64,000 nt of DNA, taken from positions 1-64,000 of the IMG/VR virus record IMGVR_UViG_3300025087_000641; one strand, written 5' to 3'. Under the pieces are notes generated by a model. It searched no databases. It worked only from the letters and a program-made list of their open reading frames with translations, and was not told the origin of the DNA. The stretch comes from a virus. Below, piece after piece: positions 3,305-42,407 of the stretch (position 1 is its first letter; every line of letters starts with the position of its first letter). The position numbers and the translations under genes were made by a program.

Positions 3305-3546
3305 AAACGGACTACAAATATATCCACTTTGACAAGAAATTCAACCTCGCTAAAACAACTTGCTGGAGTTGCATCAACAACAGTGGCGAATATGAACTTG
3401 GAGAAGTCAAATGGAGTGCTGGATGGAGACAGTATTGCTATTTCCCGCTACCAACATATAACCAAATTGTCTACAGTTCTGGTTGCCTCAAAGACATAGC
3501 AGACTTCATTGAACAACTCATGGTAGATAGAAAGGCACAGCAATGA
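3301..3546 (+). CDS. hypothetical protein, 81 aa
   Basis: I chose the ATG at 3301 because it overlaps the previous TGA (ATGA), the dominant arrangement in this genome; the frame is open 57 nt further upstream. The protein has a CWSC pair near residue 21 and aromatic-rich beta-strand segments. No family recognised. Confidence 0.6.
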   Translation: MKTDYKYIHFDKKFNLAKTTCWSCINNSGEYELGEVKWSAGWRQYCYFPLPTYNQIVYSSGCLKDIADFIEQLMVDRKAQQ

Positions 3547-3734
3547 ACATCCCAAAGATAATTGACGTTCTGACTCGCGCCAAACACGAACACTACTCAG
3601 AATACGAGGGACTTCATAGTTGCTGGACATTCACTGGTGGAGAATATGACTGTGGCGCAGACGAAATCAACGCCAAGATTGATGCGCTAATTCTTGAACT
3701 GCAACAAGAACTAGACATCGCCACAAAAGCATAG
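3543..3734 (+). CDS. hypothetical protein, 63 aa
   Basis: The ATG overlaps the preceding stop (ATGA at 3543). The short polypeptide has a C-terminal amphipathic helix rich in Leu, Asp and Glu (about residues 42-60). It is the last gene of this + strand unit and is followed by an operator-like motif and a terminator. Confidence 0.55.
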   Translation: MNIPKIIDVLTRAKHEHYSEYEGLHSCWTFTGGEYDCGADEINAKIDALILELQQELDIATKA

Positions 3735-3737
3735 CAA

Positions 3738-3753
3738 TAGTCAAATTTGCACA
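3738..3753 (+). promoter_or_regulatory. copy of motif TAGTCAARTTTGYACA
   Basis: The sequence TAGTCAAATTTGCACA lies between the last + strand gene and the terminator at 3758. It matches the 16-bp motif found in many intergenic gaps of this window (see the finding on the dispersed motif). Confidence 0.5.
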
Positions 3754-3757
3754 AAAG

Positions 3758-3788
3758 AAAAGCCCCTCAATCCACGAGGGGCTTTTTG
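3758..3788. terminator. bidirectional rho-independent terminator
   Basis: AGCCCCTC (3761-3768) pairs with GAGGGGCT (3776-3783) around a 7-nt loop. An A tract precedes it and a T tract follows (TTTTT at 3783-3787), so it can work on both strands. It sits exactly between the convergent + operon and the minus-strand methyltransferase genes. Confidence 0.85.
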
Positions 3789-3820
3789 ATTAGCAGAAAT
3801 GTTCGCCACAGGCATATTGC

Positions 3821-3913
3821 TCAAAGACGTGGCGATACCCCACAATCCTCCAGAGCAACACGGTACTTTTTGCCTGTGTGCTTACACCACACATCAAAGC
3901 GAAATTTGCTCAT
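3821..3913 (-). CDS. small basic Cys-containing peptide, 30 aa
   Basis: The ATG (complement of 3911-3913) overlaps the end of the adjacent methyltransferase gene and the frame stops at 3821. The product is basic with Cys10 and Cys24 (WCKHTGKKYR). The overlap and protein-like composition favour a real coupled gene, but it is short. Confidence 0.35.
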   Translation of the reverse strand: MSKFRFDVWCKHTGKKYRVALEDCGVSPRL

Positions 3914-33025: not shown

Positions 33026-33464
33026 TTTGACAGGCGAACAGATTGACGCCATGCCTGCTGGACACGAGATGGATGTACTTGTGGCAGAGCATGTGATGGA
33101 GTGGGAACGTCTTGATTCTTGGATGGGAAGTCCTCTTGCTAAAGGATGGGATGGTTTTTGGGATGGTGAGTGGGTGAAATGGATTATAATGCCAGAATCG
33201 GACGATGAGAACAGGGCTAAATTGTGGTCTCCAAGTACAGATATTGTTGCGGCATGGCAGGTGGTGGAGAAACTTGTCGAAAACTGTGATGGAAGAGACT
33301 TCTTTATAGAATGTTGGGGTGATGGTGAATGGTTTGTTGCGTTCCATCCGATTGGATATAGTTCAAGAAAACCACAGGGTGCGTGCGATGGCAAGAAAAC
33401 CCAGAATCCATCCGCACCCTTGGCGATTTGTCGCGCCGCATTGAATTGGGCAATTGATGACTGA
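33018..33464 (+). CDS. phage ABA-sandwich-domain protein, 148 aa
   Basis: MDVLVAEHVMEW near residue 18, LWSPSTDIVAAWQVVEKL near 70 and APLAICRAALNW at the C-terminus reproduce the phage ABA-sandwich pattern seen in many phages. Its function is unknown. GTG start overlapping the previous gene; the next gene starts inside its end. A useful marker that this island sits in phage DNA. Confidence 0.78.
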   Translation: MTDLTGEQIDAMPAGHEMDVLVAEHVMEWERLDSWMGSPLAKGWDGFWDGEWVKWIIMPESDDENRAKLWSPSTDIVAAWQVVEKLVENCDGRDFFIECWGDGEWFVAFHPIGYSSRKPQGACDGKKTQNPSAPLAICRAALNWAIDD

Positions 33465-34470
33465 TAATCTAGTATCCATGCAAAACATCTTCTGGCGTGG
33501 TGCTTCTGTCGCCATCACTGGCATTACTGGAAGCCTCGGAACTGCGCTATCCAAAGAACTATTGAAACCAGAGTACAATATTTCTCGTCTTGTTGGGATA
33601 AGTCGAAAGTGGCAAGACCAAGACAGACTCCGCAAGGAATTGGGGGATGACGATAAACTCAGATTATTCATTGGCGACATTCGAGACATTGACAGACTTA
33701 GACTTGCACTAGACGGGGTTGAATATCTTGTCCATGCAGCAGCTATAAAATCAGTTCCCGCCTGCTGGTATAATCCCACAGAGGCCGTAAGCATAAACGG
33801 ACAGGGAACTATCAATGTTCTGCAAGCGTCTAGGGATGCTGGGGTCAAACGGGTAATTGTCATCTCTAGTGATAAGGCAGTAGCACCCGCCAGTGGCAAC
33901 CTCTACGGCGCAACAAAAGCAGTATGCGAGTCTGTGGCGGTATCGTATAACAACTATAGCGCCAGTCGTCAGACTCGGTATGCGGTTTGTCGCTATGGAA
34001 ATTGTGTAGCGTCAAGTGGATCAGTTATCCCATTGTTCCTAAGCCAAAAAGAAAGCGGGAAATTGACCATTACTCATCCAAAGATGACAAGATTCTGGAT
34101 TACGCTAGATGAGGCAACACATTTCATCCTGAAAAGTATGGAGTCAATGCTCGGTGGCGAAATCTTTGTACCCCACCTCCCATCCTCTCGGATAACTACG
34201 TTGGCATCTATGATAGCGCCTGAGGCAGAGATTGAGACAATCGGTATTCGTCCCGGCGAGAAGTTGCACGAGGTTATGCTAACACCAGATGAAGCACCAC
34301 GGACTAAAGATTTGGGATGGGCATACAGAGTCGAGCCACAAGAAAGGACATGGGGAGGCTTGCCGTATATTGGGGGTAGTCCAGTTCCGGCAGATTGGAT
34401 TTACAGCAGTGCAAGTGCTACGCGACTTGGCGAGGATGAGTTGCGCGGGATGTTGTCCGAATTTGTATAA
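33457..34470 (+). CDS. pseB: PseB-like UDP-GlcNAc 4,6-dehydratase/5-epimerase
   Basis: PseB makes UDP-2-acetamido-2,6-dideoxy-L-arabino-hexos-4-ulose, the first step of pseudaminic acid synthesis. An extended SDR with NAD site TGITGSLG (21-28), SSDKA (137-141), catalytic Tyr150/Lys154 in LYGATKA, FWITLDEATHFIL, GGEIFVPHLPS and the hallmark RPGEKLHE near residue 260. 337 residues fits. I chose ATG 33457 (TTG 33454 is the alternative). It opens the sugar-nucleotide island; partners are pseC (47774), the PseH-like gene (38564) and the rest of the pathway. Related 4,6-dehydratases with other stereochemistry cannot be excluded. Confidence 0.85.
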   Translation: MTDNLVSMQNIFWRGASVAITGITGSLGTALSKELLKPEYNISRLVGISRKWQDQDRLRKELGDDDKLRLFIGDIRDIDRLRLALDGVEYLVHAAAIKSVPACWYNPTEAVSINGQGTINVLQASRDAGVKRVIVISSDKAVAPASGNLYGATKAVCESVAVSYNNYSASRQTRYAVCRYGNCVASSGSVIPLFLSQKESGKLTITHPKMTRFWITLDEATHFILKSMESMLGGEIFVPHLPSSRITTLASMIAPEAEIETIGIRPGEKLHEVMLTPDEAPRTKDLGWAYRVEPQERTWGGLPYIGGSPVPADWIYSSASATRLGEDELRGMLSEFV

Positions 34471-34494
34471 TCCAATGTAAAAGAGAGGATACAA

Positions 34495-35301
34495 ATGGGA
34501 TATACAACGGGTGTTCAATGGACAAATCGGACTCACAATTTCTGGTATGGGTGCAAAAAGGTATCTGCGGGATGTAAGTTCTGTTATGCAGAACGCGATA
34601 TGGAGCGGTATGGACGCAATTTCAATACTGTGACTAGGGCAAAGGGATTTTATACGCCACTAAATTGGAAAGAGCCAGCACTTGTATTTGTGAATTCATG
34701 GTCAGACTTCTTTATTGAGGAAGCCGACGAATGGCGCAGTGATGCTTGGGATGTTATCTGGAAGACCCCGCATTTGACTTATCAGATACTTACCAAGCGT
34801 CCAGAGAATATCAAAGATAGACTCCCCGCCAATTGGGGATGGGGATGGGATAATGTTTGGTTGGGGGTAAGTGCAGAGAATCAGGCAATGGCAGACAAGC
34901 GCATACCAATTCTATTGTCCATTCCGTCAAGTATTCGTTTTGTAAGTGCAGAGCCGTTACTCGGAAAGATTGATCTTGGACTGTGGTGTATGGATTGCGA
35001 TGATTATATGCGTATTCATCGCGCGGAGGGCGAGCATCTAACCGATGCGGGAGATGGATTACACTGGATAATTGCCGGTGGAGAGAGTGGTCATACTCCG
35101 CGCCCATCTGATATTGATTGGTTTCGTTCTATTCGCGACCAATGCCTCTCCGCAAATATTCCGTTCTTCTTCAAACAGGTGGGCGGAAGCAAGAAAGTCA
35201 ATGGCGCATGGGGTGGGGACTTGCTTGACGGCAAAATATGGCACGAGTTTCCACAGACAAGCAAGCAGACAGAATCACAGCCAGAATTGATTAGGAGTTG
35301 A
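34495..35301 (+). CDS. DUF5131 (phage Gp37/Gp68) radical-SAM-like protein
   Basis: The N-terminus has WTNRTHNFWYGC, then GCKKVSAGCKFCYAER: Cys20, Cys27 and Cys30 form the DUF5131 three-cysteine site thought to hold an iron-sulfur cluster. Later conserved pieces are QILTKRPENI, NVWLGVSAENQ, RFVSAEPLLGKID, WIIAGGESG and FFFKQVGG. 268 residues is full length. The family is common in phages and plasmids but its reaction is unknown; radical chemistry on a base or sugar is inferred. Preceded by GAGAGGA. Confidence 0.88.
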   Translation: MGYTTGVQWTNRTHNFWYGCKKVSAGCKFCYAERDMERYGRNFNTVTRAKGFYTPLNWKEPALVFVNSWSDFFIEEADEWRSDAWDVIWKTPHLTYQILTKRPENIKDRLPANWGWGWDNVWLGVSAENQAMADKRIPILLSIPSSIRFVSAEPLLGKIDLGLWCMDCDDYMRIHRAEGEHLTDAGDGLHWIIAGGESGHTPRPSDIDWFRSIRDQCLSANIPFFFKQVGGSKKVNGAWGGDLLDGKIWHEFPQTSKQTESQPELIRS

Positions 35302-35302
35302 C

Positions 35303-35563
35303 ATGGCCTACTTCTTGGCATTACCCAATGGTGACGAATACACGATAGCATCGGGATCGTTTTCTGTGCGCTCAAATGCGGAGAAGTATGCAAAGAGAAT
35401 GGGATGGACTAAATATTTCATCGCCACTTCCGAACAAAAGGCAATGATAGAGAGCGGTCAACTGGTCTCATTCGGAACTGTTATTCCCATTGAGAATGTT
35501 ACCGCGCTAGTTGAGCCGGAAAAAGAATCCAAGAACAAACGCAAGCGCCATGTCTCCCGCTGA
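35303..35563 (+). CDS. hypothetical protein, 86 aa
   Basis: Starts 1 nt after DUF5131. Alpha/beta core (YFLALPNGDEYTIASG, YAKRMGWTKYF) and a very basic C-terminus (KESKNKRKRHVSR). Function unknown. Confidence 0.55.
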   Translation: MAYFLALPNGDEYTIASGSFSVRSNAEKYAKRMGWTKYFIATSEQKAMIESGQLVSFGTVIPIENVTALVEPEKESKNKRKRHVSR

Positions 35564-36050
35564 ATTCTTTCTCAACCTCTCCGCCAATATAGCAGGGGAG
35601 ATAGCCTTTGCCATACTTGCAGTTGTGGCGGGACTCGTTGCGTTTCGCTATCGCAAGGCCGCCTCTGTATATCGTGCGCTAGTATCTCAAATGTGGGTAG
35701 GAAGAAAGACAACCTCACCAGACGGTAGAAGTACAGCACACGAGGCCAATGGTGAAATATATATTACCGAGAAGTCTGGTAGAATAACAAATCTGACTCA
35801 TCATCCAGCACTAGATATTCGCCCAATGTTTTCTCCCGATGGACGATGGTTGGCATTCCAAAGCAATAGGGATGGTGGGGATTGGAATGTCTATGTGGTG
35901 GATATTGCATCCCAGAAAACGGTTCAGATTACAAAAATCAAAGGAACAGAGAGAGCAATTGGATGGGACATGACGGGGCAGTTGTATGTAGACCTCGGGG
36001 GCAGCCTGCTTGTCGTCAAGTCTATTGAGTTGGAGAACAAATTGAAATGA
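35550..36050 (+). CDS. membrane-anchored PD40/WD40-like repeat protein
   Basis: A signal-anchor helix at about residues 14-31 (GEIAFAILAVVAGLVAF) is followed by TolB/PD40-type beta-propeller blades: NLTHHPALDIRPMFSPDGRW with LAFQSNRDG, WNVYVVDIASQKTVQIT. Only two or three blades fit in 166 residues, so it is either a fragment or must multimerise. Located at the membrane, possibly outside the cytoplasm. Coupled to the next gene (36047). Confidence 0.62.
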   Translation: MSPAEFFLNLSANIAGEIAFAILAVVAGLVAFRYRKAASVYRALVSQMWVGRKTTSPDGRSTAHEANGEIYITEKSGRITNLTHHPALDIRPMFSPDGRWLAFQSNRDGGDWNVYVVDIASQKTVQITKIKGTERAIGWDMTGQLYVDLGGSLLVVKSIELENKLK

Positions 36051-36511
36051 GCAATATTGTATATGAATGGATTATGGACAGAGACGGAAATGTTGTGGTT
36101 GGGGAACACATCTTGTCACAAGAGGAAGTAGTCGCCATATTCAGTGGTGGAAGTAGTACTAACACGACCTCAAATGGTGGAATGTTGACATGGACTATTC
36201 CCAACGCAAACAATAGTAATCAGTCAACTCCCACAGTCAAGGTTGCCCTCTATCGGCGTAGCACCCATGATGGGAAGGGGAACTACAAGCAATTCACGCC
36301 TACGCAAGAACAACTCTGGAAAGACCTTGCAGTAGTTGCGACGATGACGAGTGCACTGGCATGGAAATCTGTAGATGAGATTTTCAGAGACGCCACGGAC
36401 TATCGGAACAGAATGATAGGTGGCAAAAAGGAATACATCTCTAGGGACTTTGTTGAACAGTCATTAGAAATACTTTGCAATAATGGATTGATCGAGAAAA
36501 ACGATGCCTAA
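36047..36511 (+). CDS. hypothetical protein, 154 aa
   Basis: Residues 30-60 are Ser/Thr/Asn-rich and probably flexible; the rest is helical with DAVEQSLEIL-like pattern at the C-terminus (SRDFVEQSLEILCNNGLI). Overlaps the cytidylyltransferase start. Function unknown. Confidence 0.5.
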   Translation: MSNIVYEWIMDRDGNVVVGEHILSQEEVVAIFSGGSSTNTTSNGGMLTWTIPNANNSNQSTPTVKVALYRRSTHDGKGNYKQFTPTQEQLWKDLAVVATMTSALAWKSVDEIFRDATDYRNRMIGGKKEYISRDFVEQSLEILCNNGLIEKNDA

Positions 36512-37214
36512 TTGTGTGGCGGTTATTCCCGTTCGGGGAAACAGCAAGGGTATTCCAAGAAAGAATCTAATTGACTTGGGCGGCAAGCCTCTATTCATGT
36601 GGACAGTTGGGGCGGCAATAGAGTCTGGCGTATTTGACAAGATTGTAGTGAGCACAGAAGATGATGAAATCATAAGTTATTGTGACAACGGGAAAGTGGA
36701 TGTAATTTTTCGCCCGCGCTATCTTTCACAAGATCATGTTCAATTGAGTGAGGTTGTGTTACATGCCTATCGGGTTATGGAGCAAGAGTGGGGATGGAAT
36801 CCAACAACGCTATGCTTGTTACAGGCGACCTCGCCACTAAGGACGGCGGGCCATATCATCAATGCCATGCGACAATATAGGGGGCGAGGGACTCTATTCT
36901 CAGCATACATTGACAAACGGTATCACTGGGCGGTGGAGGATAGAGTCGAACCAATACAGCATAATCCTGCTAGACGACTTGGCAGGCAATGGGAGCCAAG
37001 TCAAATTTATACCGAGAACGGGGCGATTTATTTCTTTCCAGCAAAACGATTTAGCCTAGAATGCACAATTAGACTAGAACCATTTGATGTCTATATTATG
37101 GACGAGGAAGATGGATTTGAAATTGATACCCCTTGGCAACTTGATATAGCAAGGCTTAGACTAGAGAAATATGGTCTGCATTTCCCGGAACTTGCGCCAC
37201 AATTAGGCCCTTGA
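36504..37214 (+). CDS. CMP-nonulosonate cytidylyltransferase (NeuA/PseF family)
   Basis: Activates a nonulosonic acid with CTP to CMP-sugar plus pyrophosphate. IPVRGNSKGIPRKN at 8-21 is the CTP-binding motif, LLQATSPLR at 105-113 and the late IDTPWQLDIA (D-x-W region) are family signatures. 236 residues is normal for a single-domain enzyme. Final cytoplasmic step before transfer. Its last ~40 residues are repeated, diverged, downstream of the adjacent TnpB element (38448-38561), so a second copy once existed. Pseudaminate specificity is inferred from its partners. Confidence 0.88.
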   Translation: MPNCVAVIPVRGNSKGIPRKNLIDLGGKPLFMWTVGAAIESGVFDKIVVSTEDDEIISYCDNGKVDVIFRPRYLSQDHVQLSEVVLHAYRVMEQEWGWNPTTLCLLQATSPLRTAGHIINAMRQYRGRGTLFSAYIDKRYHWAVEDRVEPIQHNPARRLGRQWEPSQIYTENGAIYFFPAKRFSLECTIRLEPFDVYIMDEEDGFEIDTPWQLDIARLRLEKYGLHFPELAPQLGP

Positions 37215-37239
37215 CTTTTACATAAAGATATATTATATT
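37211..37239 (+). promoter_or_regulatory. promoter of tnpB
   Basis: TTGACT (37211-37216), a 17-nt spacer and TATATT (37234-37239). The predicted start falls at about 37246, immediately before ATG 37247, so the transcript would be leaderless. The -35 overlaps the stop of the cytidylyltransferase gene. Confidence 0.6.
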
Positions 37240-37246
37240 GTAAGGC

Positions 37247-38431
37247 ATGATTATCAATAAATCATTTAAGTTCAGAGTTTATCCAACGAGAGAACAGAAA
37301 AAAGAACTCGTCAGGCAATTTGACGCATCACGTTTTGTATATAATTATTTTCTTCGCCAAAGAATTGATTTCTATGTTGCCCACAGGGGGGAGAAAAAAC
37401 AATCCCTGAATTATAATGATACTTCTGCATTGCTTACTCAACTTAAAAAACAGCCTGAATATAATTGGCTTAGGGATACAAATGCCCAATCTCTTCAACA
37501 GTCCTTACGCAATCTTGATATTGCCTATAATAATTTTTTCAATAAACGGACTGAATTTCCGAGATTCAAAAGTAAAAGGGCAAAGCAATCCTTCCATGTC
37601 CCACAATCTTTTTCGGTAAATGTTGAAAATGAACATTTAATTATCCCCAAAATAACACCACTAAAAATTGTTCTGCACCGCCATATTGAGGGGAAAATGA
37701 AGGGCGTTACCATTTCCCGCTCTCCGTCTGGCAATTATTTTGCCTCTATTCTATGTGAAGTTGAAATTAATCCGAGTCCAAAAAGTCTAGGGCACACTAT
37801 TGGATTAGACTTGGGATTGAAACATTTTGCCATTTCATCGGATGGGGCAAAAATAGATTCTCCAAGATATTTTAGGGTATCCGAGCGTAGGCTTTCACGT
37901 TTTCAGCGTAACCTTTCAAGAAAGAAAAACGGAAGTCGGGGACAAGAAAAGGCAAGATTGAAAGTAGCACGTCAGCACGAAAAGATTGTAAATCAACGCA
38001 TTGACTTCCTTCATAAATTAAGTCGTCGCTTAGTAGACGAGAGCCAAGCTATCTATGTTGAGGACTTAAATGTGAAGGGCATGATAAAGAATCGCGCCCT
38101 TGCAAAATCTATCGGCGATTCTGGGTGGGGAGAATTTGTGCGCTGGTTAGAATACAAGGGCAGATGGAATGGTTGTTATATTGGGAAAATTGATAGATTC
38201 TTTCCATCAAGCAAGCGGTGTCACAAATGCGGCTACATCTACCAGGATTTGCGACTCTCGGAACGTGAATGGACTTGCCCAGAATGCGGGAACACAGTAG
38301 ACCGTGATGAGAACGCTGCCCAGAATATTCTTATTTTTGGGGAAGAACGTAGGGCTGGGATGGCCCGAACGCATACGCGAGGGAAGATTCGTCGCCGAAT
38401 CGCTGATCCTCGAAGTCGCATGATTCTATAA
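37247..38431 (+). CDS. tnpB: TnpB RNA-guided endonuclease (IS200/IS605 family)
   Basis: 394 residues, complete. The RuvC-like catalytic residues are in place: Asp188 in GLDLGLKHF, Glu272 in YVEDLNVKGM and Asp352/354 in VDRDENAAQNI. The zinc finger C325-x2-C328 ... C344-x2-C347 is intact. The N-terminal wedge begins KFRVYPTREQ. TnpB cuts DNA guided by an RNA from its own 3' end and favours element retention. The basic tail (THTRGKIRRR) overlaps the presumed guide-RNA region. No tnpA in the window, so movement would need one in trans, or the gene serves as a homing-type nuclease. Confidence 0.92.
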   Translation: MIINKSFKFRVYPTREQKKELVRQFDASRFVYNYFLRQRIDFYVAHRGEKKQSLNYNDTSALLTQLKKQPEYNWLRDTNAQSLQQSLRNLDIAYNNFFNKRTEFPRFKSKRAKQSFHVPQSFSVNVENEHLIIPKITPLKIVLHRHIEGKMKGVTISRSPSGNYFASILCEVEINPSPKSLGHTIGLDLGLKHFAISSDGAKIDSPRYFRVSERRLSRFQRNLSRKKNGSRGQEKARLKVARQHEKIVNQRIDFLHKLSRRLVDESQAIYVEDLNVKGMIKNRALAKSIGDSGWGEFVRWLEYKGRWNGCYIGKIDRFFPSSKRCHKCGYIYQDLRLSEREWTCPECGNTVDRDENAAQNILIFGEERRAGMARTHTRGKIRRRIADPRSRMIL

Positions 38432-38437
38432 TGCGAC
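38415..38437 (+). repeat. right-end hairpin of the TnpB element
   Basis: GTCGCAT (38415-38421) pairs perfectly with ATGCGAC (38431-38437) around a 9-nt loop that contains the tnpB stop codon. Subterminal hairpins of this type mark IS200/IS605 ends, and the guide RNA scaffold normally ends here. Confidence 0.6.
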
Positions 38438-38447
38438 AATTCACATT

Positions 38448-38561
38448 ATGCCAGAAGAGGATGGGCGGGAGATAGACGCTCAATGGGAGCTTGATGTGGC
38501 GAGGTTGAGATTTGAGAAGTACGGGTTACATCATCCAGACACAACGCCCATTTTGGAATAA
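38448..38561 (+). pseudogene. 3' remnant of a second cytidylyltransferase gene
   Basis: The 37 residues (MPEEDGREIDAQWELD and so on) align with the last ~37 of the intact enzyme at 36504: EEDG-x-EID, W-x-LD-x-ARLR-x-EKYGLH are shared. At DNA level they are clearly diverged, so this is an old paralogue or a foreign copy, not a target duplication. The upstream part is missing where the TnpB element ends. It may be translated from ATG 38448, but would lack the active site. Confidence 0.8.
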
Positions 38562-38563
38562 CA

Positions 38564-39046
38564 ATGCTAACACTTTCGCCAATAACGCTAAAAGAAACGG
38601 AGAGGATTTGGCAACTCAGAAACGATGTTGCCACGAGGCGCGAGTTTGGGATACCTGTAATCTCATATGCTCAGTGCCTAGATTGGGTGGCGACTGTCAC
38701 CGACAGAAAGACTCCCGAATATGTGTTCCTCGTCAGAGATGCCAAGATGGGGAATATCGGTCTTATCATTCTGGAGAAACACGGCGCAGAAATTGAGATT
38801 CATGTTACAATAGACCCTGCCCATCGAGTACGCAGGGGATATGGCAAACAGGCGATAAAACTAGCAACCGACTGGGCATTTATGAATGGCGCAGACAGGG
38901 TAGTTGCCAACATCCGAGAAGAAAATTACAAAGGACTCTTTGCATTTGAGTCCTCTGGGTACAAAGAAGTCAGAAACTATCTTGGGCCGAGGAATATATC
39001 ATACTTTGAATACGAGATAAGAAATGACCAGAAGAAGAAATACTAA
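38564..39046 (+). CDS. GNAT N-acetyltransferase, PseH-like
   Basis: 160 residues with the GNAT fold: IWQLRNDVATRREFG near residue 15 (W/LRN motif of sugar N-acetyltransferases), ISYAQCLDWV near 34, and the acetyl-CoA motif HRVRRGYGKQAI at 87-98. PseH acetylates the 4-amino group of UDP-4-amino-4,6-dideoxy-L-AltNAc. Position between the pathway genes supports this. It starts 2 nt after the cytidylyltransferase remnant; Lys-rich C-terminus overlaps the next ORF by 23 nt. Confidence 0.75.
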   Translation: MLTLSPITLKETERIWQLRNDVATRREFGIPVISYAQCLDWVATVTDRKTPEYVFLVRDAKMGNIGLIILEKHGAEIEIHVTIDPAHRVRRGYGKQAIKLATDWAFMNGADRVVANIREENYKGLFAFESSGYKEVRNYLGPRNISYFEYEIRNDQKKKY

Positions 39047-39851
39047 TATAGACAGACATTGGGATGAAATTACATGGTTATATCTAAATAATTTTGAATC
39101 AACTGTATCATTGGGAGAAAAATTTAGCGTACATGCATCAACTATAGAGAGGCGATTGAAACAGAGTGGTATTCCTGTAAGGCCAGGCGGGAATCTTACT
39201 GAAAATCACACAGCCTTTGATGAAATTAATCCAGATATGTTGTATTGGCTTGGCTATTTGGCTGGAGATGGATGTGTTACACACAATGCAAATGGAATAT
39301 TATCAATCATTTCAATAACAAGCATTGATATTGAACATATTGATAAATTTCTACATTTCCTGTCATCGCATTCCAAAATAACACGGCGCGAAAGCGAAAT
39401 AAATGGCAAGAAATATGTTGTTCATGGGGCAAAAATTACATCTGAAAGAATCGCAAATAGACTTGTTTTTCTTGGGGTAACTCCAAGAAAATCAAGAACC
39501 ATTTCAATATGCCAACAATCCATAGTTTCGACGGTTGATTTTCTGCGTGGTATAATAGATTCTGACGGTTCATTAACTATAACGGCTGATGGATTTACCC
39601 CGACGATAAGCATTTACACCAGTAGCGGGAAATTCTCGGAACAACTCTCTCTTGGTTTCAATGAAATGTTTGGAGAGACATGTGGGATATATTATGACAA
39701 AAGGGGGTCTGGAGCATACCAAGTCGCACTACATGGAAAGAGAATATTGCCCATCTTGCATAGATTATATTCGGGAGACGACATATCATTAAACAGAAAA
39801 AGGGATATTGCATTAGATGTTTTGGAAAGGTTTGGATATGCCCAAATTTGA
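39024..39851 (+). CDS. LAGLIDADG homing endonuclease, free-standing
   Basis: Two LAGLIDADG helices: YWLGYLAGDGCV at 74-85 and FLRGIIDSDGSL at 173-184, both with the catalytic acidic residue, so a monomeric two-repeat enzyme of 275 residues. Residues 10-55 form a helix-turn-helix (VSLGEKFSVHASTIERRLKQ), a common fusion. It overlaps both flanking genes (23 and 14 nt) and is not inside an intron. AT-rich codon use (many ATA, TTA, AAT) differs from neighbours, which indicates recent arrival. Confidence 0.88.
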   Translation: MTRRRNTNIDRHWDEITWLYLNNFESTVSLGEKFSVHASTIERRLKQSGIPVRPGGNLTENHTAFDEINPDMLYWLGYLAGDGCVTHNANGILSIISITSIDIEHIDKFLHFLSSHSKITRRESEINGKKYVVHGAKITSERIANRLVFLGVTPRKSRTISICQQSIVSTVDFLRGIIDSDGSLTITADGFTPTISIYTSSGKFSEQLSLGFNEMFGETCGIYYDKRGSGAYQVALHGKRILPILHRLYSGDDISLNRKRDIALDVLERFGYAQI

Positions 39852-40731
39852 TACTAAACAAGATTCTCGCATTAAATCTGCAAATTATAGGCATGTAGAA
39901 TTAATAGCAGAAATAGGAAGCAACGCAAACGGCGATTTTGAACGTGCGCGGCAATTGGTAGAAACGGCGTGTTCCTGTGGTGCTGATATTATCAAGGTGC
40001 AACTCTTCGCCGCCGATACCCTGTGGCGCAAAGACCACCCTCGCCATGCCGAGACCCTGAAAGTTGAGACTAAGCCGGAATGGATTAAGCCACTGAAAGA
40101 AATCATTGAGAAGCACGGCAAAGAGTTTCTGTGTACTCCGTTCTCTCCATTTGCCATTGATGTTCTTGAAGAGGTGGGTATCAAGAGATACAAGATAGCA
40201 TCTGGAGATGTCACCTACCGCCCATTACTACAGGCGGTAGCATTGACTGGCAAGCCGGTTTTACTCAGCGTTGGGTTTTCAACATTTGCTGAAATCCACA
40301 AGGCGATTGAATGGCTTAGGCCGTCCGGGAGTCGGGAGGATATTACGCTCCTGTGGTGTGTGGGTGACTATCCAACGACTCCTGCTAGGGCTAACTACCC
40401 TGCTGTTCTTGACCTCATCCAAGAGTTTGTGATGCAATACAATTGCCAGATTGGATTGTCTAGTCACCTGAAAGAGTGGTGGTTAGACCTAGTCCCAATG
40501 GCTTACAAAATCAGCGTCATTGAAAAGCACTTTGACCTGTTTGATAGTGCGGGCATTGAACATGGTCATTCACTATCGCCACATGACTTTACGCTATTCT
40601 CACAAGCAGTACGGGATGCGGAAAAGTCGCTGACTCGATATGATTTCCCGTCACCAGATGATGACGAGACGCGGACTTTATGCAGGCGTGACCCGCGAGA
40701 TTGGCTTAGGCCAGAAAGACGCGATAAATGA
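39838..40731 (+). CDS. NeuB-family nonulosonic acid synthase (PseI candidate)
   Basis: Condenses a 6-carbon sugar with PEP to give a 9-carbon nonulosonic acid. ELIAEIGSNANGDFERA at 21-37, IIKVQLF, FLCTPFSPFAIDVLEE, YKIASGDVTYRPLL, LSVGFSTFAEI and IGLSSH are in family order, with EKHFDL late. I chose ATG 39838. At 297 residues it lacks the usual ~60-residue C-terminal SAF (antifreeze-like) domain, whose arginine reaches into the partner subunit's active site; the end (RRDPRDWLRPERRDK) may substitute or the enzyme may be altered. First ~20 codons overlap the homing endonuclease gene. Confidence 0.85.
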   Translation: MPKFDTKQDSRIKSANYRHVELIAEIGSNANGDFERARQLVETACSCGADIIKVQLFAADTLWRKDHPRHAETLKVETKPEWIKPLKEIIEKHGKEFLCTPFSPFAIDVLEEVGIKRYKIASGDVTYRPLLQAVALTGKPVLLSVGFSTFAEIHKAIEWLRPSGSREDITLLWCVGDYPTTPARANYPAVLDLIQEFVMQYNCQIGLSSHLKEWWLDLVPMAYKISVIEKHFDLFDSAGIEHGHSLSPHDFTLFSQAVRDAEKSLTRYDFPSPDDDETRTLCRRDPRDWLRPERRDK

Positions 40732-40958
40732 CAGATTATCCCGGTTCAACTGGCGGTGGGCGATACTGCGAAACATGCCATACATGGATTCCGTGGGGGA
40801 CATTCCATTTTCACCCGGAGCCGATACAGGTGCAACCACCTCAATTGCCACCCATGCCACAAATTCAATTTTGCGACAGTAGGATAGTTCCACTTCTTGA
40901 GCGCATTATCGTTGCACTTGAGAAAATTGTCTCCATACAAGAAAGTCAACGTGGATGA
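40728..40958 (+). CDS. small zinc-motif protein, 76 aa
   Basis: CETCHTWIPWGTFHFH (residues 14-29) looks like a C2H2 zinc site, followed by a proline-rich linker and a C-terminal helix (LLERIIVALEKIVSIQE) suited to coiled-coil pairing. ATGA overlaps on both sides. Possibly a scaffold between enzymes; inference only. Confidence 0.6.
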   Translation: MTDYPGSTGGGRYCETCHTWIPWGTFHFHPEPIQVQPPQLPPMPQIQFCDSRIVPLLERIIVALEKIVSIQESQRG

Positions 40959-41533
40959 CATCCCTTTGGTTAATCCGACACGGCAGGACAGCATGGAACG
41001 CTGAAAAAAGAATACAGGGAGACATGAATATACCACTTGACGATATTGGTATAAGTCAGGTGTCTAAACTTGCACAAACACTCCTCGCAGAAAGATTTGA
41101 CGCTATCTACAGTTCACCTCTCCACAGAGCACTCCACACGGCAGGCTCAATTGCATACGGCAGACGACTAGATGTTATTCAGGATGACAGACTGAAAGAA
41201 CGTAGTTATGGACTCTGGACTGGTATGCTAGAGGCGGATGTACGTAAGGAATATCCAGAAACATGGGGTGGCGACTGGCGCATCTGTGGCACTCCGGGTG
41301 GAGAGAGTCAGGCACAACTTGTTATCCGTGCCTCATCGTTCTTAGATGCCATTCTAAATCGGCATCCAGAAGGACATATTGCTGTAGTTAGCCACGAATG
41401 CTTGTTGGGAGCAATGCTCGGCACTATTCTAAAGATGCCCATTGAAATGCATGAGGCCATCAGATTCAAGAATTGCGGGTACGCCAATGTCAAGTTCATA
41501 AATGGAAAGGCAAGGTTGATAACATTACAATGA
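40955..41533 (+). CDS. histidine phosphatase (phosphoglycerate mutase-like)
   Basis: LIRHGRT at 6-12 gives the phosphohistidine, Arg in SSPLHRALHTA, Glu in LKERSYGLWTG and the second His in VVSHE near residue 147: all catalytic residues of the clan are present. 192 residues matches small-molecule phosphatases (CobC/GpmB-like). In this island it may dephosphorylate a sugar phosphate intermediate; substrate unknown. Confidence 0.82.
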   Translation: MTSLWLIRHGRTAWNAEKRIQGDMNIPLDDIGISQVSKLAQTLLAERFDAIYSSPLHRALHTAGSIAYGRRLDVIQDDRLKERSYGLWTGMLEADVRKEYPETWGGDWRICGTPGGESQAQLVIRASSFLDAILNRHPEGHIAVVSHECLLGAMLGTILKMPIEMHEAIRFKNCGYANVKFINGKARLITLQ

Positions 41534-41652
41534 AACGAATAAGAATGGTTTTTAGGGAACCATATGATATTGGCACAGTTCTAATAACTGCCACCTTCCT
41601 GATACTGCTAATTATTGCCGTGGTATTTAACAATTGTTGCTATATTCCATAA
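41530..41652 (+). CDS. membrane microprotein, 40 aa
   Basis: ATGA overlap with the phosphatase gene. A single helix at about residues 15-33 (GTVLITATFLILLIIAVVF) with a basic N-terminus (KRIRMVFRE): type N-in. One of the island's interleaved membrane microproteins. Confidence 0.55.
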   Translation: MKRIRMVFREPYDIGTVLITATFLILLIIAVVFNNCCYIP

Positions 41653-41660
41653 TCTAAGAA

Positions 41661-42407
41661 ATGAAACTCCCAGACCTCTATCTCAATGTAGACACCGTTC
41701 ACGGTCTTGGTCACAAGATGCGAACATGGGCAATTGCCGAGGAGTATCTGAGACAAGGTGGTGCTGTTCATTGGCAATGGGATAAACTGCCAGATGAGAT
41801 GAGTGTAACCATCTTTGATGGATACAACTATACCAACCATGACAGAGAGCGGTGGATGTCTGCGGGACATTTAGTGGTGACGCTGGATGACTTTGCGAGG
41901 GCAGATTTTACAACTCACATTCTAATCAACTACAATTATGGTGCTGAGAAATTGCCGTGTTTCAAGATGTCAGGGATGAAGATTCCGGGCATATCAATTT
42001 TTCTTCTCGGAACTAAATACTTCCCGCTGAGAGAGGATTATAAAAAACTCACAAGCGTTGATGGGGGACATTCATTTGATACAGACTCGGTTGGCAGGCA
42101 AATGCCTCCAGCGCAATTCGCAAAGAATATGGCAGAGGCCTCATATGTGCTATCTTCGGCAGGGGGGACAGTTTATGAAATCATGTATCTGTGCAAACCA
42201 ATGCTTCTGCGGAAGGCGAACAGTACACAAGGGGTAACATACAACAATGTCATCCGTGATGGGTTGGCACTTCCAGATACACAAGAGAACAGAGAGATGA
42301 TGAAAAATCCATATCATCGGGATAGATATGTGTCCTATTTGCAAGGGCTAGTTGACGGGAATGGCGCAAGTCGGATTGTGGAGGAAATAAGCCATGTGGT
42401 CGGGTAA
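41661..42407 (+). CDS. PseG-like UDP-sugar hydrolase / GT-B protein
   Basis: PseG releases UDP from UDP-2,4-diacetamido-2,4,6-trideoxy-L-altrose. VHGLGHKMRTWAIAEEY (13-29) carries the family GxGH-x-x-R motif with His18, and SSAGGTVYEIMYLCKPMLL is the UDP-binding half. 248 residues is short compared with ~280-350, and the middle is less typical, so PseG is a likely but not certain call; another small GT-B enzyme is possible. Overlaps the next gene by 14 nt. Confidence 0.62.
   Translation: MKLPDLYLNVDTVHGLGHKMRTWAIAEEYLRQGGAVHWQWDKLPDEMSVTIFDGYNYTNHDRERWMSAGHLVVTLDDFARADFTTHILINYNYGAEKLPCFKMSGMKIPGISIFLLGTKYFPLREDYKKLTSVDGGHSFDTDSVGRQMPPAQFAKNMAEASYVLSSAGGTVYEIMYLCKPMLLRKANSTQGVTYNNVIRDGLALPDTQENREMMKNPYHRDRYVSYLQGLVDGNGASRIVEEISHVVG

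Follow-up and report, generated by a model that had tools for sequence, protein, structure and literature searches.

Why should the last codons of a gene stand twice in a phage genome, once in place and once beyond a TnpB nuclease? The question is raised by the virus record IMGVR_UViG_3300025087_000641, of which the first 64,000 of 105,404 bases (the window) were analysed. There, a full-length cytidylyltransferase gene of the NeuA/PseF type (neuA) is followed by a solo TnpB element, and the 3' end of a second, diverged neuA begins directly after the element. The arrangement probably represents an RNA-guided homing cassette that carries a cleavage-resistant replacement gene end and thereby its own rescue. 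More broadly, phages may well carry natural RNA-guided home-and-rescue drives, that is, TnpB cassettes travelling with a diverged end of the target gene, 3' or 5', each insertion of which would re-make a guide-resistant working gene while the displaced native end would serve as guide template against uninterrupted relatives.

Two ends of one gene around a TnpB element

The intact gene product matches Pfam CTP_transf_3 (E 1.4e-19) and 1eyr (E 1.8e-25), as well as the PseF model at E 9.8e-29, which lies under that model's own cut-off; the gene still overlaps its upstream neighbour. The TnpB gene that follows matches the OrfB_IS605, Cas12f1-like_TNB and HTH_OrfB_IS605 profiles, so that an intact NeuA/PseF gene followed by a solo TnpB, as an earlier note on this sequence had described, is borne out. 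Three residues, D188, E272 and D354, are invariant together with the cysteine positions across 8 aligned TnpB proteins and are taken here to be the putative catalytic (RuvC) residues. The entire record holds a single tnpB copy, and no TnpA-like gene was recognised among the scanned neighbours. RuvC residues, a zinc finger and a hairpin right end followed by a guide fit a solo TnpB element of the IS200/IS605 type; an IStron is not indicated, no Rfam intron family having been found in 36400-40800 at a permissive threshold, and the same search returned no omegaRNA family.

Beyond the element, the frame 38436-38561 aligns to NeuA residues 196-234 with a BLOSUM62 score of 140, and the local DNA alignment of this remnant with intact neuA scores 54, against a maximum of 30 across 500 shuffles. 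A tblastn search of the whole record found exactly two NeuA-like places, 36504-37211 and 38433-38555 (61%, E 6.7e-13). Homology at the DNA level begins at 38445, 3 nucleotides ahead of the ATG at 38448, which refines the NeuA-like C-terminal end noted earlier from 37 residues to 38 codons. The remnant's stop lies 2 nucleotides before the next ATG, keeping a tight junction with the following GNAT gene. Because 38448-38561 can also be read as an open reading frame of 37 amino acids, the earlier note had allowed for an unrelated conserved small gene or for an assembly duplication of identical sequence. That the remnant is an artefact or an unrelated gene following TnpB is now extremely improbable: 61% identity to NeuA over about 40 residues (E 6.7e-13) refutes the unrelated gene by alignment, and assembly duplication is excluded by a protein identity of no more than about 61-64% between the two copies.

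The right end of the element was placed at 38444, after a terminal 7-bp hairpin (38415-38437) and the bases AATTCAC, by a scan for a stem of at least 6 bp followed by a TCA-type motif, the motif being required by the scan itself; a hairpin with TTCAC is common at the right ends of relatives. As this end and the start of homology at 38445 were located separately, the neuA homology abuts the element with no gap. In ISDra2, the final stretch of the TnpB-bound RNA, about 16 nucleotides, comes from DNA next to the right end (PMC8612924), and the displaced neuA end is therefore the predicted guide. Its sequence, ATTATGCCAGAAGAGGATGG, has itself as its sole perfect match in the record. Intact neuA differs from it at positions 7, 8, 9, 12 and 15 and has TCTAT in front.

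The displaced segment holds E206 and D208, which align via 1eyr to the metal-binding residues Asp209 and Asp211 of the Neisseria meningitidis enzyme; the D209A change abolished and the D211A change crippled the activity of that enzyme (PMC2901514). An insertion arriving without a spare end should consequently inactivate NeuA, and a carried end would rescue it. Among the nine residues treated in that study, these two alone map past the insertion point, whereas Gln104, Lys142, Arg173, Asn175, Tyr179, Phe192 and Phe193 map ahead of it in the 1eyr-based alignment. A switch in sugar specificity is thus not indicated, and the earlier suggestion of an altered choice of sugar acid for activation finds no support.

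Recurrence in other viral TnpB loci

Whether this anatomy is peculiar to the window was addressed by comparing the flanks of viral TnpB loci (given L numbers below), with mismatched pairs, the flank of one locus against the flank of another, as controls. For a test anchored at the right end, 106 loci were supplied, 98 right ends were found and 96 loci, with 88 distinct tnpB sequences, were testable; 600 control pairs reached maxima of 35 (DNA) and 48 (protein). Other flank comparisons took 42, 40 or 30 loci from a first set of 45 and 66 from a second set of 80, those left out of the 80 being repeats of other loci or cut by contig ends, and an unanchored protein test covered 40 loci at first and 95 later. 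The sample is biased towards relatives of the window TnpB. Six of the 96 exceeded the anchored controls: the window (protein 140), L198 (DNA 61, protein 96), L192 (protein 66), L006 (45, 66), L175 (DNA 51) and L012 (47, 51). Four were accepted on inspection, namely the window, L198, L006 and L175. L004 was added separately; the anchored scan had misplaced its right end and so missed it, but with the end set by eye 32 of 36 bases are identical beginning directly after TTCAC, and the match is clear in other comparisons.

At L004, L006, L175 and L198 the left end of the element is flanked by an intact gene, and a displaced piece of this gene starts at the right end, where the guide is predicted to be encoded. 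The part affected is the 3' end in the window, L004, L006 and L175 and the 5' end in L198 and in a further locus, L232. In all accepted cases the intact copy departs from the guide within the first nine positions (window 7, 8, 9; L004 5; L006 5, 6, 9; L175 4; L198 7, 8).

The most informative comparison concerns L198, whose 109-amino-acid target gene has relatives at twelve loci; of these, L225 is the contig of L198 itself, L228 duplicates L227, and L234-L236 (49% identity) were left out of guide counts for want of the motif used to locate the site. L226 shows no TnpB motif close to its copy of the gene. On the right-end side, L198 can be aligned with it as far as the base adjoining the element (260 positions, 92.7%). 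The left-end gene of L198 agrees with L226 at 251 of 259 positions from nucleotide 62 on and at only 18/27 and 19/34 before, a pattern indicating that L198 gained TnpB together with an altered gene start and that its native start came to lie on the guide side. Among the relatives, seven (L226, L227 and L229-L233) have sites that follow CTTTAT and show 1-3 differences in 20 from the L198 guide; the intact copy of L198 shows six, at 7, 8, 11, 14, 18 and 20. One of the seven, L232, lies on a different contig of 203 kb and carries L198's TnpB cassette (93.9% over 1,674 bp from the right end). The first 27 nucleotides of its gene are those of L198, after which it resembles its other relatives (27-29/34), and its guide side keeps a shorter gene start (GAGTATTGTCCAG), which places the cassette at another site of the same gene. 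For L004, the TnpB-free syntenic relative L238 has a counterpart of the 70-amino-acid gene that runs into the following gene with an overlap, an arrangement shared by the displaced end in L004.

As an observation on L232 itself, positions 1064-1160 of that locus place the insertion about 48 nucleotides from the L198 position, with a very short displaced start.

These comparisons bear on the two origins that the earlier note had offered. Under the first, two tandem neuA copies existed, TnpB entered the second, and the 5' part of that copy up to the left end was later lost. Such a history accounts for the anatomy of the window, and at L192 and L210 TnpB does lie between complete genes of similar length resembling tandem paralogs. 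It is nevertheless unlikely and does not explain the recurrence, as several unrelated loci would each have had to undergo the same exact deletion, while the TnpB-free L226 and L238 have one gene copy at the site and the identity break at the target site in the intact copy of L198 is not something a deletion predicts. The second origin, recombination between cytidylyltransferase genes, fits best in view of the same architecture elsewhere and the TnpB-free relatives of two loci, and the earlier interpretation is partly supported.

Recombination need not involve homing. Ordinary TnpB transposition might have broken the native gene (neuA'), and a chance exchange with another neuA might have restored it once. 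The same anatomy would be expected with no need for TnpB activity, and the first formation of a cassette could be explained in this way. As a full account, this one-off repair is quite improbable, given that the unit of TnpB plus altered gene start occurs in both L198 and L232, two phages with different crossover points, and that the guide-side sequence matches uninterrupted relatives when the linked copy does not.

Several other candidates fell away. L012 was rejected as low-complexity AT sequence and L200 for a match not at the right end; at L205/L206 only a coiled-coil-like stretch matched, and the right end is doubtful. L145, L187, L218, L219 and the isolate phage L144 were set aside for an upstream second copy of the right end with no gene end. 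The right-end-like second stretch that these five carry upstream of the TnpB gene suggests that elements inserted there more than once or at an earlier time. L192 and L210 are ambiguous. At L192:3105-5502, two complete 95-amino-acid genes, which align from the right end on, enclose TnpB and a divergent gene that was judged by eye to resemble a TnpA (3463-3873); the pair may be tandem paralogs, or the cassette may here comprise a whole gene. At two further loci, L143 and L142 (Klebsiella phages ZCKp20p and RSU-F4K5), TnpB lies between head-tail genes and many close relatives are without it, which offers clean sites for defining the ends and the target-adjacent motif of a plain TnpB insertion.

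A probable home-and-rescue cassette and its precedents

In the homing model, the native operon would have been the 154-codon reading frame, neuA' and GNAT. The cassette, a solo TnpB with a replacement neuA 3' end, would have entered neuA' at a TTTAY-type site within the Val-Tyr/Ile-Met codons; the ancestral codons would permit TTTAY ahead of the target, and uninterrupted neuA' would read TTTAY and then ATTATGCCAGAAGAGG, running straight into the GNAT gene. Joining of the native 5' part to the incoming end would restore a complete enzyme whose sequence mismatches the guide, while the native 3' end, displaced beyond the element and flanking its right end, would template the omegaRNA guide. During mixed infection, TnpB could then cut phages whose neuA' is uninterrupted, and these would acquire the replacement end and TnpB when the break is repaired with the element-bearing genome as template. 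The origin of the window through such a cassette, the activity of its TnpB, and homing and its direction are inferred from the comparisons above.

A number of points weigh against this interpretation. Most TnpB loci do not have the pattern, and it is absent from 9 isolate phages and from 21 bacterial loci, the latter a weak control with 12 of 21 from one genome. Unanchored protein scores in that bacterial control reached 111 in GC-rich low-complexity stretches, for which reason the DNA scores (maximum 34) were relied on. The scores of L004 and L006 in unanchored protein tests (65-67) stay below that of the best mismatched control (68), and at its aligned start the tnpB of L004 lacks a standard start codon. 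L198 and L232 have their insertions at two sites of the gene, which a fixed guide fails to explain. Within intact neuA, the G+C content at third codon positions falls at codon 174 from 0.47 to 0.26, with 0.53 in the remnant; the direction is as expected and suggestive of a foreign 3' end, but the shift is not significant (permutation p 0.077). The best change point, 37026, allows that the replacement end may begin upstream of 37095. Finally, related phages with two intact copies or without TnpB, which the earlier note had proposed to seek, were not found for the window neuA, nor was any intermediate, in the sequences searched. Close counterparts of NeuA or NeuB turned up in no viral or phage record (NeuA at most 37% in viral contigs, with partial matches up to 42%; one bacterial contig gave a partial NeuA match of 42%) in single-gene scans, which use a small number of exact peptides and may overlook relatives. 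Window 22000-46000 had no megablast match among phages, and the L004 and L192 genes had none in isolate phages.

The closest precedent is provided by the yeast WHO elements at FBA1, for which the available text describes a matching layout and model, with cleavage shown (PMC7282813). There, too, a full-length host gene and its own former 3' end, now displaced, lie on either side of a nuclease gene; the host gene is chimeric and cleavage-resistant, and nuclease plus resistant gene end form the functional unit. By mode of action, the window's intact copy is likewise altered at the predicted cut site (7, 8, 9, 12, 15). A chimeric intact copy is seen at L198, the corresponding comparison in the window giving a change point that is not significant (p 0.077), and uninterrupted alleles were found for L198 and L004 but none for the window. 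The nucleases differ: WHO uses a protein-guided HO/intein-type endonuclease in yeast and the phage element an RNA-guided TnpB, which stands outside the WHO protein family (HO/intein-like endonuclease with zinc finger); in the window, moreover, the displaced end itself templates the predicted guide.

The engineered HomeR drive, in its available description, similarly aims its guide at a coding end and carries a re-coded end, of 22 or 27 amino acids compared with about 38 in the window, and foreign 3' sequence; it is a synthetic split Cas9 drive in Drosophila, unlike a natural single-gene TnpB (PMC7968924). TnpB is reported to act as a gene drive in plasmids (PMC11870625), and IS200/IS605 TnpB elements also encode their guide past the right end and cut uninserted sites, but the insertions covered in those texts have no replacement gene end (PMC11870625, PMC8612924). 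In Tremella mitochondrial introns part of the host gene arrives with a mobile element from a foreign source and the old part is split off, there with protein homing endonucleases and no RNA guide in the account available (PMC7315562).

The term TnpB is absent from the accessible text of a survey of phage homing endonucleases (PMC10448857), and in a T4 review a term search brought up nothing on target genes in duplicated or truncated form (PMC2988022). No publication on such a TnpB cassette was found in titles and abstract openings, a scope outside which most subscription papers and non-PMC bioRxiv papers fall. What is new is the home-and-rescue layout combined with an RNA-guided nuclease in phages, with the displaced gene end also encoding the predicted guide. 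The layout suggests how TnpB could persist inside useful phage genes, by bringing along a spare, guide-proof gene end. If true, an engineered gene-drive design would have a parallel in nature, able to spread into a gene without destroying it, and exchanges of gene ends between phages would have TnpB as one of their causes. Exact guide, target and resistant-copy sequences are available for direct tests of TnpB homing in phages.

The surrounding sugar-acid cluster

Features of the neuA-TnpB locus and of the sugar-acid cluster, in window coordinates
Feature	Position	Strand	Basis or remark
PseB-like gene	33454-34470		profile match below NCBIfam cut-off
Open reading frame, 154 amino acids, function unassigned	36047..36511	+	overlaps neuA start (ATGCCTAA)
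neuA/pseF, full-length; proposed hybrid gene with native 5' part	36504..37214	+	CTP_transf_3, 1eyr, PseF model
3' end of intact neuA homologous to remnant; proposed replacement end	37095..37214	+	DNA alignment; guide mismatches
Candidate promoter TTGACT-17 nt-TATATT, spanning neuA stop and left end	37211..37239	+	by eye
TTTAC, predicted left-end boundary of element	37217..37221	+	resemblance to relatives only
TnpB gene, 394 amino acids, putative catalytic residues and zinc-finger cysteines kept	37247..38431	+	profiles, alignment
Predicted omegaRNA scaffold / right end	38300..38444	+	hairpin and motif scan
Predicted guide segment, 20 nt, first bases of displaced neuA end	38445..38464	+	right-end position
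Displaced 3' end of diverged neuA, 38 codons and stop	38445..38561	+	DNA/protein alignment, tblastn
GNAT acetyltransferase gene	38564..39046	+	displaced neuA end runs into GNAT gene
NeuB/PseI-like gene	39817-40731		profile match below NCBIfam cut-off
PseG-like gene	41661-42407		profile match below NCBIfam cut-off

The locus lies within a phage-encoded cluster of the sialic/pseudaminic-acid pathway type (33454-42407, with PseB-, PseF-, GNAT-, NeuB/PseI- and PseG-like genes), all genes of which score below curated NCBIfam cut-offs; one window gene matches a phage tail tape measure family. A free-standing LAGLIDADG-type endonuclease gene (39024-39851; Pfam LAGLIDADG_3, PHROG endonuclease) overlaps both its neighbours, GNAT at the gene's end and neuB at its predicted start, and is possibly a second homing nuclease within the same sugar cluster.
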